Assembly: GCA_025149125.1 (NCBI GenBank)
Contig: CP102272.1
Span: forward strand, 5,146,001 to 5,210,000
Length of the DNA: 64,000 bases
Direction: 5' to 3'
Source: [Clostridium] asparagiforme DSM 15981
GTDB taxonomy: Bacteria; Bacillota; Clostridia; Lachnospirales; Lachnospiraceae
The notes beneath the pieces are model-generated. The model had not been told where the DNA came from. It ran no database searches and saw only the letters and a list, made by a program, of their open reading frames with translations. Below, piece after piece: positions 1-4,715 of this stretch (positions within the stretch are counted from its first letter, which is position 1; every line of letters begins with the position of its first letter). The translations under genes were made by a program, and so were the position numbers.

Positions 1-807
1 GCCCTCTCCAAACAGATCAACACCCTGGAGCGCGAGCTGGACTGCCGCCTGTTCGACCGAAAGGGCAGCCGCCTGGTGCTCAACGGCAGCGGGCAGAAAG
101 CCTACGCCTACGCCGTCTCCTGCCTGGACGGCTACGCCCGGCTTCAGGAGGAGCTGGCCGCGGCAGGGCAGGCCAGCCGGAAAACCCTGTATCTCGGCAC
201 CACCAACAGCATCGGGGTCTACCAACTCCCCACCGTGCTCCAGAAAGCCCGCCAGTCCCTTCCGGAATTGGAGATCCGCTTCACAGTCGGCTTCCGGGCC
301 AAAATCGTCTCCCTGCTGGCGGACGGCAGGGTTTCCCTGGCAATCCTGCCCCGGGTGGAAGGCGTAAAACCGCCCGCCGGTTACCTGGAAACCCCGCTCT
401 TTCGCGAGGAAATGGCCCTGGTACTACCCACGGATCACCCCCTTGCGGGCAAATCCGTCCCCTGGGCGGACATATGCCGCCTCACCATGCTGGCGCCGGA
501 GCAGGACTCCGCCACCCGGCAGTTTATCACAGGGCTGATGAAAACCCACGGCGGGGACTCCCCCAGGCTTCTGGACTTCGGAAATATCGAGGCCATCAAG
601 CAGGGGGTGATGCGGGGCATGGGCGTGTCCATTCTGCCCCTCGCCACCGTCCGGCGGGAGCTCTCAGGCGGGGAGCTGGCCCGGTGCCGGATCGGGGATG
701 TCAGTCTGGAGCGCACCGTGGACTGCGTCTGCCGGAAAAACGTGCCGCTGACCTGGTGGGAGCGGAAATTTCTGGATCTTTTTTCCAGTCAGCCTTCCCC
801 GTACTGA
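1..807 (+). CDS. LysR-family transcriptional regulator, 5' end outside the window
   Basis: The reading frame is open from the first base. The first residues (ALSKQINTLERELDCRLFDR) are the end of a LysR winged helix-turn-helix, so only the first ~25 codons are missing. The rest is a LysR substrate-binding domain (periplasmic-binding-protein type II fold), with the usual 'MALVLPTDHPLAG' segment in the middle and 'GVSILPLATV' near the end. Such proteins activate or repress a nearby operon in response to a small effector that cannot be predicted here. The gene converges on the phosphoglycerate mutase gene and their 3' ends overlap by 19 bp, so the mutase is not the usual divergent LysR target; the target probably lies left of the window. 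Confidence 0.93.
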   Translation, partial: ALSKQINTLERELDCRLFDRKGSRLVLNGSGQKAYAYAVSCLDGYARLQEELAAAGQASRKTLYLGTTNSIGVYQLPTVLQKARQSLPELEIRFTVGFRAKIVSLLADGRVSLAILPRVEGVKPPAGYLETPLFREEMALVLPTDHPLAGKSVPWADICRLTMLAPEQDSATRQFITGLMKTHGGDSPRLLDFGNIEAIKQGVMRGMGVSILPLATVRRELSGGELARCRIGDVSLERTVDCVCRKNVPLTWWERKFLDLFSSQPSPY

Positions 808-2363
808 CGGGCTTCCATGCCGTCTGTCAGGGCGTCGTAGGCCCGCTTTACATTTCCCCAGTTCTGATCCCGGTCCAGCACAAGGCCCCGGCCCACGCCG
901 TCCACCACGCGGAAATTGCCGCCGATCCGCGCCAGCCTCTCATCCAATGCCTGAAGCATTTCCGGGGCGGAGCCGGGCTCGGTGGAGCGGCCGTCAAAGA
1001 TGATATGCAGGTATACCTCCGGCAGGTCCCTGGCCATTTCGCAGATGGAAAGGGGGTAGTCGATGGAACCGTGGGAGGACTTGTAGGTCAGGTAGGACAA
1101 GAGGTGCAGCGCCCGGCCGGTTCTGCGGCAGCGGTCGATGGCCTCCAGAAACACGGGATTCTTCCGGAAGCTTCCGTCCCTCACCGCCGCGTCCAGGCGG
1201 ACGTCGTCCTGGAGCACCAGGCGGCCCGCTCCCAGGTTGATGTGCCCGGCCTCGGAGTTGCCCGGCTTGCCCGCGCCAAGCCCCACGTATTGGCCGGAGG
1301 CGTGGAGCCTGGACCAGGACTTCCCGCTGACAAGCGCGTCCCAGAAGGGGGTGTCCCCGGCAAAAATGGCGTCGTTTCCCGTCTGATCCCCCAGCCCCCA
1401 GCCGTCCAGAATGATGAGCAGCATTCTGCGGCCCTGGCCGAACTCATAGCCCGAAACAAGGGATTCCCCGGTCATTTCCCGGGGCTTTTTTATGGCCATC
1501 ACGTCCAGCACCGTGGGCGCCACGTCGGACAGCGCGCCGTCTCTCAACGGGATGGGTCCGCTCTTTCTGGGATCCATAAGCACAAAGGCCACCTGGTTAT
1601 CCGTGTGGGCTCCGTCGGGCTTGCCTGCGGGCGTGTAAAGCTTCTCGATATTCCCGTGGTCGGCGGTGATCGCAACCACATAGTCCTCCCTGAGGGCGGC
1701 GCTCACCACCTGCTGAAGGCTGCGGCTGACCTCCCGGCAGGCGGCCAGCTTGGCAGCGGAATTGAGCGTGTGTCCCACCACGTCTCCGTTTGCAAAATTC
1801 GTGACAATGAAATCATACCGGCCCAGCGCCTCCGTCACCGTGTCCGCCACCTCCGGCAGGGACAACTCCGGCTTCTGGTCAAAGGGCACGCCCTTGGGGG
1901 AAGGGATGCACTTGTCCGTCTCCGCGGGAAACGGGGCGTTCTCCCCGCCGTTCAGGAAAAAGGTCACATGGGCGAACTTCTCCGACTCGGCGCAGTGGAA
2001 CTGGCTTTTTCCGGCCTGGGAAATCACCTGGGCCAGCGGCATTTCCACGTGGGAGGGCGCAAAGGCGATGGGCAAATCCTTGAATTTCTCGTGATATAGG
2101 GTCATGATGGCAAAATAAAGGTCCTTAAGAGGGCGGCGGGGAACCTGTGCGAAACCGGGGTCCGTGAACATGTCGGTCAGCTCGATCTCCCGCTCTCCCC
2201 GGCGGCAGCAGAAAATCACACTGTCCCCGTCGGCGATCCTGCCCACGGGCCTGCCGCCCTCCGTCAAAACCATAGGTTCCAAGTGATAATCGTCCATCCC
2301 TTCGGCGTATGCGGCTCTGACCGCCTCCGCCAGGGAAGCGCCGCCGTATTGCGGTTGTGACAT
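789..2363 (-). CDS. gpmI: Circularly permuted cofactor-independent phosphoglycerate mutase
   Basis: iPGM interconverts 2- and 3-phosphoglycerate in glycolysis using two metal ions and a phosphoserine intermediate. All blocks of the family are present but in rotated order. Residues 10-70 match the second half of the transferase domain (R55 and R58). Residues 85-303 match the second phosphatase segment (K129, D194/H198, D235/H236, H253). A linker at 304-312 leads to the normal N-terminus, with D320 in ILDGWG and the catalytic serine S370 in GNSEAGH. The first half of the transferase domain follows (H431, R459, R492, R498) and ends in AYDALTDG. Length (524) is near normal. The usual Asp after the transferase Arg (DGRD) is Ser460. 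Start: ATG 9 nt after GAGGAGG. It may be a working mutase or a relative with altered specificity. Confidence 0.88.
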   Translation of the reverse strand: MSQPQYGGASLAEAVRAAYAEGMDDYHLEPMVLTEGGRPVGRIADGDSVIFCCRRGEREIELTDMFTDPGFAQVPRRPLKDLYFAIMTLYHEKFKDLPIAFAPSHVEMPLAQVISQAGKSQFHCAESEKFAHVTFFLNGGENAPFPAETDKCIPSPKGVPFDQKPELSLPEVADTVTEALGRYDFIVTNFANGDVVGHTLNSAAKLAACREVSRSLQQVVSAALREDYVVAITADHGNIEKLYTPAGKPDGAHTDNQVAFVLMDPRKSGPIPLRDGALSDVAPTVLDVMAIKKPREMTGESLVSGYEFGQGRRMLLIILDGWGLGDQTGNDAIFAGDTPFWDALVSGKSWSRLHASGQYVGLGAGKPGNSEAGHINLGAGRLVLQDDVRLDAAVRDGSFRKNPVFLEAIDRCRRTGRALHLLSYLTYKSSHGSIDYPLSICEMARDLPEVYLHIIFDGRSTEPGSAPEMLQALDERLARIGGNFRVVDGVGRGLVLDRDQNWGNVKRAYDALTDGMEARQYGEG

Positions 2364-2379
2364 TGTGATACCTCCTCAA

Positions 2380-2812: not shown

Positions 2813-3541
2813 CTAACCCAGCACGCTTGTGATCTTCACAGGAGTCCGGTAATTCCAGGGGGAGATGGTGATTCCCGTCTGCTCGGTGGACGCGTGAACG
2901 ATCTGTCCGTTGCCTATGTACATCGCCACATGATTGATCCGTCTGCCGTTGCCGTAAAACAAAAGGTCTCCGGGCTGCATCTGATCCGCGCTGATAGCTG
3001 ATCCCTGGGCCGCCTGAGAACCGGAGGAACGGCTCATCCCAACACCCGCCGCGTTCTGCAGCACATAACGGGTAAAGCCGGAGCAGTCCACGCCGCTGTG
3101 GGGATCGGATCCGCCGTAGCGGTAACGTCCGCCCACGAACTGCAGCGCATAATCCACGACCTGCTGGCGGCGGTAGCTGTTGGAGGAGGTGAGCGCCTCC
3201 TGCTGAATCTCAGCCATCTCCTCACCGGCGACTTCCTCCACCGTGGCGTTGCCGGACACCGGCATATACCCCTCCGTGTCCAGAACCCGAACCTTCATCC
3301 AGCCGTTTCCCATATCTTCCAACACTTCATATGTATCGCCTGACTTTGCGGTGAGAAGAACATCCTCCCCGTCCCGGCTCTTGTTGATGTTCACACTGTC
3401 CGCCGTGACGGTAGCCACGTAAGTCCCCGGCTCAAATCCCGGTCCAATCGCCGCCAGAGCTGTCTGGGGCGCCGCCATCGTAAGTACAGAGCACATGGCA
3501 CCAATCCGCAAAAAATATCTAAAGGTCCTGGTATTCAACAA
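2813..3541 (-). CDS. Secreted SH3b-NlpC/P60 cell-wall hydrolase (copy 1)
   Basis: Predicted peptidoglycan endopeptidase cutting stem peptides outside the cell. Residues 1-30 are a signal peptide ending TALA-A. Residues 42-100 resemble a bacterial SH3 wall-binding domain. Residues 124-242 are an NlpC/P60 domain with the catalytic cysteine in DCSGF (C153) and histidines in NHVAMYIG (H204) and IVHAS (H216). The start is TTG, 4-7 nt after AGGAG, with two TTG codons in a row. It is closely related to the gene at 3957-4655, and both have a TGTAAY direct-repeat box upstream resembling the WalR (YycF) site that controls wall hydrolases in Firmicutes. Each copy has its own terminator, so they are separate transcription units from a local duplication. 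Confidence 0.92.
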   Translation of the reverse strand: MLNTRTFRYFLRIGAMCSVLTMAAPQTALAAIGPGFEPGTYVATVTADSVNINKSRDGEDVLLTAKSGDTYEVLEDMGNGWMKVRVLDTEGYMPVSGNATVEEVAGEEMAEIQQEALTSSNSYRRQQVVDYALQFVGGRYRYGGSDPHSGVDCSGFTRYVLQNAAGVGMSRSSGSQAAQGSAISADQMQPGDLLFYGNGRRINHVAMYIGNGQIVHASTEQTGITISPWNYRTPVKITSVLG

Positions 3542-3938: not shown

Positions 3939-3969
3939 AAAAAAATACAGCCTGCATCAAAGCAGGCTG
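3939..3969 (-). terminator. Terminator overlapping the end of the second NlpC/P60 gene
   Basis: CAGCCTGC and GCAGGCTG form a perfect 8 bp stem followed on the minus strand by TATTTTTTT. The stop codon lies inside the hairpin. Confidence 0.85.
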
Positions 3970-4655
3970 ACAATCTTCACCGGTTTGCGGTAATTGTAGG
4001 GGGAGGTCTTGATCCCCGTGCGTTCTGTGGAGGCGTGGACGATCTGCCCGTCTCCAATGTACATGGCCACATGGTTGATCCGGCTGCCGCTGCTGTAGAA
4101 CAGCAGGTCGCCGGGGCGCATCTGGTCCACCGTCACTTCTCTGCCGTAGGACGACTGTCCGCCGGAGGAGTGGGGAAGGCTGATGGAAGCGGCTTTTGCC
4201 ATGACATAGCGGGTAAATCCCGAGCAATCCACGCCGCTGTTGGGGTCCGTTCCGCCGTACACATACTTGCCGCCCACGAACTGGAGGGCGTATTCCACGG
4301 TTTCACGGCGCTTTTTCACGGACTCATCCACCTTTTGGCTGGTCTTTTCCACCAGAGAGGCGTTCCCGGGAACGCGGATGTATCCTGCGGCGTCCTCTGC
4401 CTGGATCTTCACCCAACCCGCCTCCGCCTGGGACAACACCTGATAGGTCTGTCCCCGCTTCACGGTTCCCGCCTTGGCGGAGCTTGTGTTTGCCGCTGTA
4501 TGTACTTCGACCTCCGGGGCTTCGATCTTCACCACGTAGCTGGATGTGTTGGTCACCTCTGGTCCAAACTGGGCCGCTCTTGCCTCCGACGGTTCCGCCA
4601 CCAGAAGCAGCCCCATTACACAGGCGGCGCCTGCCATCTTCCATATCGTTTTCAC
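3957..4655 (-). CDS. Secreted SH3b-NlpC/P60 cell-wall hydrolase (copy 2)
   Basis: Paralogue of the upstream hydrolase with the same layout: signal peptide at 1-27 ending SEARA, SH3-like domain at about 42-100, charged linker, and NlpC/P60 domain at 117-232. The catalytic cysteine is C144 in DCSGF, with histidines H195 (NHVAMYIG) and H207 (IVHAS). I chose the GTG at 4655 because it sits 8 nt after GAGGTG and gives a clean signal peptide; a TTG at 4673 would start before that ribosome site. A perfect WalR-type box (TGTAAC-N5-TGTAAC) lies 61 nt upstream. Predicted to hydrolyse peptidoglycan stem peptides during growth or division. Confidence 0.9.
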   Translation of the reverse strand: MKTIWKMAGAACVMGLLLVAEPSEARAAQFGPEVTNTSSYVVKIEAPEVEVHTAANTSSAKAGTVKRGQTYQVLSQAEAGWVKIQAEDAAGYIRVPGNASLVEKTSQKVDESVKKRRETVEYALQFVGGKYVYGGTDPNSGVDCSGFTRYVMAKAASISLPHSSGGQSSYGREVTVDQMRPGDLLFYSSGSRINHVAMYIGDGQIVHASTERTGIKTSPYNYRKPVKIVSLL

Positions 4656-4715
4656 GCTTTTTGCACCTCGCAAATCAATCTATTTCCAATTTTCGATTAC
4701 AGTTTTATCAAAATT

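Follow-up and report, generated by a model that had tools for sequence, protein, structure and literature searches.

A circularly permuted relative of cofactor-independent phosphoglycerate mutase in [Clostridium] asparagiforme, with a putative role outside glycolysis

The reverse strand of the [Clostridium] asparagiforme DSM 15981 window (the whole 64,000-nucleotide stretch analysed here) carries, at 789..2363, a gene for a 524-residue protein that the open reading frame list, profile searches and phmmer matches relate to cofactor-independent phosphoglycerate mutase (iPGM, GpmI). The two halves of the enzyme appear in exchanged order, and the locus raises the question of whether this order is genuine and, if so, whether the rearranged enzyme still serves glycolysis. 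The frame begins with ATG, preceded by 7 nt by a ribosome-binding site, AGGAGG, read off the sequence (2371..2376, minus strand), and ends with a stop codon at 789–791. Its 3′ end overlaps the 3′ end of a convergent plus-strand gene (1..807), named a LysR-like regulator from sequence resemblance and cut in its 5′ part by the window start. On the other flank, a tandem pair of minus-strand genes (2813–3541 and 3957–4673) encodes two related proteins, which we take to resemble SH3 plus NlpC/P60 hydrolases.

Domain order of the encoded protein

Canonical iPGM has its transferase domain set into the phosphatase domain. In the window protein, phmmer aligned residues 314–515 with residues 6–208 of 1ejj and residues 13–303 with residues 218–509, and the best Pfam stretches (metalloenzyme domain at 103–292, iPGM N-terminal domain at 391–517) occur in the reverse of the usual order. 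The PF01676 score of 178.5 bits exceeds the gathering threshold of 24.3 bits, with the ligands of the two-metal site conserved, and TIGR01307, the GpmI equivalog model, scored 436.3 bits against a cut-off of 330.65, split in two stretches. Since the protein passes this equivalog cut-off, annotation pipelines probably label members of its kind as ordinary phosphoglycerate mutases. ApgM (TIGR00306) shares the metalloenzyme superfamily but is shorter and unpermuted, and the window protein reached only 28.6 bits, over a partial match, against the ApgM cut-off of 320.

Global alignment with the canonical GpmI of the same genome scored 495 for the protein as encoded versus 850 after rotation; a scan in 5-residue steps gave its best score, 851, with the cut at 310, and 20 shuffled controls had a mean of 8.6 and a maximum of 19. 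Identity after rotation amounted to 200 of 499 aligned residues. The protein, collinear with GpmI only once rotated, has the iPGM sequence in circularly permuted form, as an earlier note on this DNA had claimed and had proposed to check by such an alignment. Read from the new N terminus, all on the minus strand, it comprises the second half of the canonical transferase domain (residues 11–103, 2055..2333, aligned from 1ejj 218 onward), the C-terminal part of the phosphatase domain (residues 104–303, 1455..2054, with Asp194, His198, Asp235, His236 and His253, from Pfam and alignments), a short linker from the old C terminus to the old N terminus (residues 304–312, 1428..1454), the N-terminal part of the phosphatase domain (residues 313–384, 1212..1427, with Asp320 and the nucleophile Ser370) and, at the new C terminus, the first half of the transferase domain (residues 385–517, 813..1211). 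The permuted enzyme is therefore laid out as a contiguous phosphatase domain with one transferase half on either side. The 1ejj alignment shows the old termini joined by ~9 residues and places the new ones at 1ejj 208/218, inside the transferase domain as delimited for 1ejj; both junctions fall where the earlier note had put them. A repeat search of the gene returned no convincing permutation-derived repeats.

An assembly or annotation artefact, against which the earlier note had also argued, has a negligible probability. No point in its favour was found; the genome, a single contig of 6.35 Mb, holds a second permuted copy, 62% identical to the first, together with the canonical-order gpmI that the note had suggested looking for, and the 82 loci and 24 more distant loci described below, from many assemblies, all share the same order. 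The second permuted copy (L104, 8688–10487) adjoins genes for an RpiR-like regulator and an apparent tripartite tricarboxylate transporter, named by sequence resemblance.

Enzymes of central metabolism are seldom found in a naturally permuted form. The earlier note knew of no described permutation in this enzyme, and a search of the open-licence literature likewise brought up no paper on one. The string ‘permut’ occurs 0 times in the main text of PMC2964296 and PMC5382265, and passages of PMC10690619, PMC12482443, PMC7618129 and PMC12838507 do not mention a permuted iPGM.

Distribution and history of the permuted family

A contig scan confirmed 135 relatives, the best 80 of which were combined with the two own-genome copies into group A (82 loci). 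Every one of these loci gave a single uninterrupted match in the permuted order, L068 and L073 being cut by contig ends. By record title, the relatives belong to Oscillospiraceae, Lachnospiraceae, Butyricicoccus, other Clostridia, Erysipelotrichaceae and Christensenellaceae, and further to Anaerolineaceae, other Chloroflexi and Spirochaetes. Two more distant permuted groups, B1 (11 loci) and B2 (13 loci), are 37–45% identical to the window protein.

A tree was built from 46 permuted rows (23 of 82 from A, 10 of 11 from B1 and 13 of 13 from B2) together with 28 canonical ones. A single branch, with an SH-aLRT of 99, separates all its permuted rows from the canonical rows, and each of A, B1 and B2 forms one group. 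A separate tree, of 47 A rows and 24 canonical ones, recovered the same split with a support of 100, with a program warning of meeting long branches; both trees were quick, unrooted searches without bootstrap. One old permutation event is most simply assumed as the history of a family of at least three groups, without being proven, and the family is apparently old, widespread and undescribed.

The gene was present in 3 of 150 genomes of the family to which the L009 genome belongs, and in at least 9 of 298 genomes of the class of the L049 genome (centre included in both), the class sample holding in addition at least 13 more distant permuted ones; the sample of the window's phylum contained the own genome and at least 11 more distant ones among 398 genomes. 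In the class and phylum samples, some first-look candidates per genome were scored. None of 97 other, near genomes searched carried a permuted copy, so the gene is patchily distributed and was probably acquired. Of 36 plasmid records matched at E ≤ 1e-40, none spans 80% of the protein.

A canonical gpmI, whole or in a few cases fragmentary, accompanies the permuted gene in 28 of 42 other genomes; the remaining 14 gave no match in a search aimed at canonical-order GpmI. A role of the permuted form as a replacement for gpmI is ruled out for the own genome and for these 28 others, where canonical gpmI is present.

Active site and substrate pocket

The likeness of the permuted protein to GpmI (TIGR01307; PF01676 and PF06415; 1ejj) covers both domains, the metal ligands, the serine and the phosphate-binding Arg, His and Lys residues. 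Comparison of 82 permuted with 19 canonical rows (from 20 loci, one of which lacked a canonical frame and was dropped), in the numbering of the own-genome GpmI, revealed 59 columns conserved among the canonical rows and identical in all 82 permuted rows, including Asp12, Ser62, His123, Arg260, Arg263, Lys334, Asp402, His406, Asp443, His444 and His462. Ser370, within GNSEAGH (codon at 1254..1256, minus strand), is the counterpart of catalytic Ser62; it and all metal ligands are retained, in agreement with the earlier note.

The pocket is rebuilt relative to that of GpmI. We read the changes against the roles of individual iPGM residues in substrate binding, among them that of Asp154 in handling the substrate hydroxyl, on which a search of the open-licence literature yielded no paper. 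Asp154 is present in 19 of 19 canonical rows and replaced by Ser in 81 of 82 A rows, the remaining row being cut off there; in the window protein the substituted residue is Ser460 (984..986, minus strand), and the loss of the aspartate beside the transferase Arg, which the earlier note had seen there, proved to be family-wide. The GVHS motif, invariant in the 19 canonical rows, becomes SSHG in the permuted rows (residues 429–432 of the window protein, 1068..1079, minus strand, with His431 retained) through the replacement of Gly121-Val122 by Ser-Ser and of Ser124 by Gly, each in 82 of 82 A rows. The preceding Gly120 is Lys in 80 and Arg in 2 of the 82, and His128 is Tyr throughout. Asn258-Phe259 and Pro261-Asp262 are likewise replaced in all 82, by Cys-Arg and Gly-Glu, respectively; residues 53–58 of the window protein accordingly read CRRGER (2190..2207, minus strand) against the canonical NFRPDR, that is, RGER for RPDR, with both canonical Arg retained and one Arg gained.

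These features extend in part to the distant groups. Position 154 is Ser in all ten readable B1 rows (L158 being partial) and Gly in 13 of 13 B2 rows, and SSHG occurs in all 24 B rows; Asp154 is absent from all 104 permuted rows readable at that position. The B rows depart from A elsewhere, B2 for instance in Tyr120 and the lack of Arg259. The B2 loci (L159–L171, from the class of the L049 genome), besides having Gly154 and Tyr120, share few neighbours.

Given that the catalytic set is conserved and the pocket changed, the chemistry has likely been kept and the substrate changed. The retained chemistry would comprise two metals and a serine that takes up the phosphoryl group, and with Asp154 lost and Lys or Arg gained, GpmI-like action on 3-phosphoglycerate would not be expected. 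Alkaline-phosphatase relatives hydrolyse the phosphoserine and release phosphate. The permuted enzyme might correspondingly be a plain phosphatase that, Asp154 being gone, hydrolyses its phosphoserine and frees phosphate from imported esters; the lost aspartate and the adjacent phosphatase genes of the HAD type fit this idea, but the complete transferase domain, which a phosphatase would hardly need, has been retained, and we consider it a tentative and somewhat unlikely explanation.

Gene neighbourhoods and candidate functions

Neighbouring genes were assigned by homology-based gene calling around the 82 A loci. Among the 77 loci with sufficient flanking sequence, 67 have a HAD as the nearest upstream gene within 350 bp; four HADs stand in tandem in 43 of 68 loci, and 9 of 68 have none. 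Among these tandem HAD phosphatases (L005–L084), 121 were of suitable length; 112 of them fit the motif pattern, and every one of the 112 reads DxGxT, so that the usual second Asp is missing. Directly downstream of the permuted gene lies IolG in 21 and a PfkB kinase in 14 of 77 loci. In 10 of 82 loci, the permuted gene and a PfkB kinase gene have a membrane pyrophosphatase gene close by (L020, L024, L026–L032 and L034), and a separate apgM gene adjoins the permuted gene in 8 of 82.

Of the proteins of myo-inositol catabolic operons (IolG, IolE, IolD, IolB), the IolG, IolE and IolD representatives from the permuted-gene clusters exceed the curated cut-offs, and the IolB-like representative remains below (93 versus 205 bits). 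One locus, L128, presents a long row of permuted gene, IolG, type II GAPDH, PGK, transketolase halves, LarA, a malic-enzyme-like gene, IolE, IolB-like and IolD, all named by similarity to the searched representatives; other loci contain portions of this row. To our knowledge, no known iol operon includes four HADs, a permuted iPGM, type II GAPDH or an AfuABC-like importer.

Type II GAPDH (18 of 82 loci) and PGK (17 of 82) bring back the glycolytic reading, in which the protein would be a phosphoglycerate mutase isozyme of new domain order that completes a GAPDH–PGK–PGM branch for inositol-derived triose phosphate. It agrees with the TIGR01307 result (the model matches all 47 A1 members, the cut-off being shown for the window protein alone) and with the retention of the metal ligands, Ser, His123, Arg153, Arg185, Arg191 and Lys334 in the compared rows. 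We judge it unlikely, since every one of the 104 permuted rows that can be read at position 154 has lost Asp154 and has SSHG for GVHS, GAPDH is found in only 16 of 60 A loci with at least 4 kb downstream, the permuted gene comes directly after HADs, and canonical gpmI coexists with it in the own genome and 28 of 42 others. The type II (archaeal-type) GAPDH genes, mostly with PGK, lie within inositol operons at 18 loci between L057 and L084.

Genes for an importer, either its permease or its binding protein, occur in 20 of 82 A loci, the own genome included. For the window gene, the importer set starts ~4.7 kb away, past the left end of the window, and the intervening genes lie on both strands, so the two do not form one operon. 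In L017, L018 and L023, importer genes with the window-type binding protein stand directly upstream of the permuted gene. This binding-protein type (L018) matches 6hhb, 6fjl and 4r72–4r75, named in the PDB as Fe3+ transport components, which we take to be AfuA-type proteins with sugar-phosphate ligands. Permease and binding proteins also match the PhnU2 and phnS2 models; the likeness to AfuABC and PhnSTU importers stays below curated cut-offs, and a second binding-protein type (L009) has a marginal structural match (0.0014). Taken together, the neighbours of the relatives are phosphatases, importers and inositol catabolism genes more often than glycolysis genes.

Inositol genes also co-occur with the permuted gene at the genome level. 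IolE (E ≤ 1e-60) was found in 9 of 11 genomes chosen for the permuted gene, one of them the genome of the query itself, and in 18 of 32 further genomes so chosen, related MAGs among them not being independent. In a sample of 150 genomes, IolE was present in 3 of 3 with the permuted gene versus 1 of 147 without it; leaving out the centre and ignoring relatedness, the chance of this overlap is 3 in 11,026. IolE at this threshold was missing from 16 of 43 permuted-gene genomes, some of them incomplete MAGs. By record title, six of the 16 are Chloroflexi, two are Erysipelotrichaceae and the other eight are further Bacillota, among them three Oscillospiraceae or Oscillibacter; 3 of the 16 had weaker matches of 1e-43 to 1e-55. 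The window's own genome yielded neither IolG nor IolE above cut-off, and its HAD matches are all weak, none being a close relative.

The B loci have another setting. Five B1 loci (L148, L149, L150, L151 and L157) carry in a row a synthetase of cyclic 2,3-diphosphoglycerate (cDPG), a binding protein, a permease, an ATPase and the permuted gene, headed by a GntR-like gene in four and beginning at the synthetase in the fifth; the synthetase matches 8ork at 1.3e-133. Two further B1 loci have the ATPase immediately before the permuted gene and end, with the contig, short of the synthetase position; the importer adjoins the permuted gene in 7 of 11 B1 loci. A phosphohexomutase-like gene, named by resemblance, adjoins the permuted gene in three of the remaining four. 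B2 shows citrate-synthase and SucCD-like genes (named likewise) in 3 of 13 loci and no other shared partner. According to PMC10690619, cDPG is known naturally only from certain methanogens, and bacterial cDPG synthetase genes beside a permuted iPGM therefore constitute a separate lead. An enzyme that forms or breaks 2,3-bisphosphoglycerate, the precursor of cDPG as solute or phosphate store, would account for the B1 rows, and the gained positive charges would suit a second phosphate. As a reading of the window's own group it is distinctly improbable: a cDPG synthetase match occurs in 0 of 82 A loci, which have HADs and inositol genes instead.

The reading we prefer, at roughly even odds, is that the permuted protein transfers phosphoryl groups on a polyol that carries several phosphates and is taken up by an importer, the substrates in many relatives being inositol phosphates, and is not a glycolytic mutase. 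The changed pocket and neighbours that are HADs, inositol-catabolism genes and importers argue that it probably does not serve as a glycolytic mutase. Of the earlier note's designation, circularly permuted phosphoglycerate mutase, the permutation stands and the mutase function is doubtful, because a normal gpmI is also present, the pocket is altered family-wide and the neighbours in relatives are glycolysis genes less often than phosphatase, importer and inositol genes. The gene neighbours, like the pocket, differ from those of GpmI, and the permuted gene is additional to a normal gpmI. The finding of IolG, IolE or HAD seed matches in 0 of 24 B loci is part of what lowers our confidence.

Under the preferred reading, a larger and more phosphorylated polyol would enter through the AfuABC/PhnSTU-like importer, and phosphoryl transfer would run through Ser370. 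In relatives with HAD operons, inositol phosphates would be processed by the enzyme in series with as many as four HAD phosphatases, the phosphate being moved or removed before ring breakdown by IolG, IolE and IolD. In the own genome, where an importer is near and inositol genes were not found, phosphate-ester uptake and conversion without inositol breakdown is probable.

GpmI moves phosphate between neighbouring hydroxyls, and a comparable shift in inositol phosphates would take care of the 2-phosphate, which is axial. PMC7618129 describes Ins(2)P accumulation as Mitsuokella jalaludinii breaks down phytate. A bolder and rather doubtful proposal is that the whole family consists of vicinal-phosphate mutases, group A shifting the axial 2-phosphate of inositol for removal by HADs and B1 serving 2,3-bisphosphoglycerate. 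The group A enzyme would then be the core of an uncharted intracellular pathway for phytate-derived inositol phosphates in gut and rumen anaerobes, with LacI, PHP, HADa–d, the permuted mutase, IolG, IolE, IolB-like and IolD as its genes.

Permutation and a rebuilt pocket coincide in every permuted row that could be read, which makes this family a case for studying rearrangement together with functional change. The permuted family has apparently been redirected to other phosphorylated compounds, perhaps the inositol phosphates of plants. If the inositol-phosphate reading is true, the operon would represent a new route to plant phosphate stores for gut and rumen bacteria.
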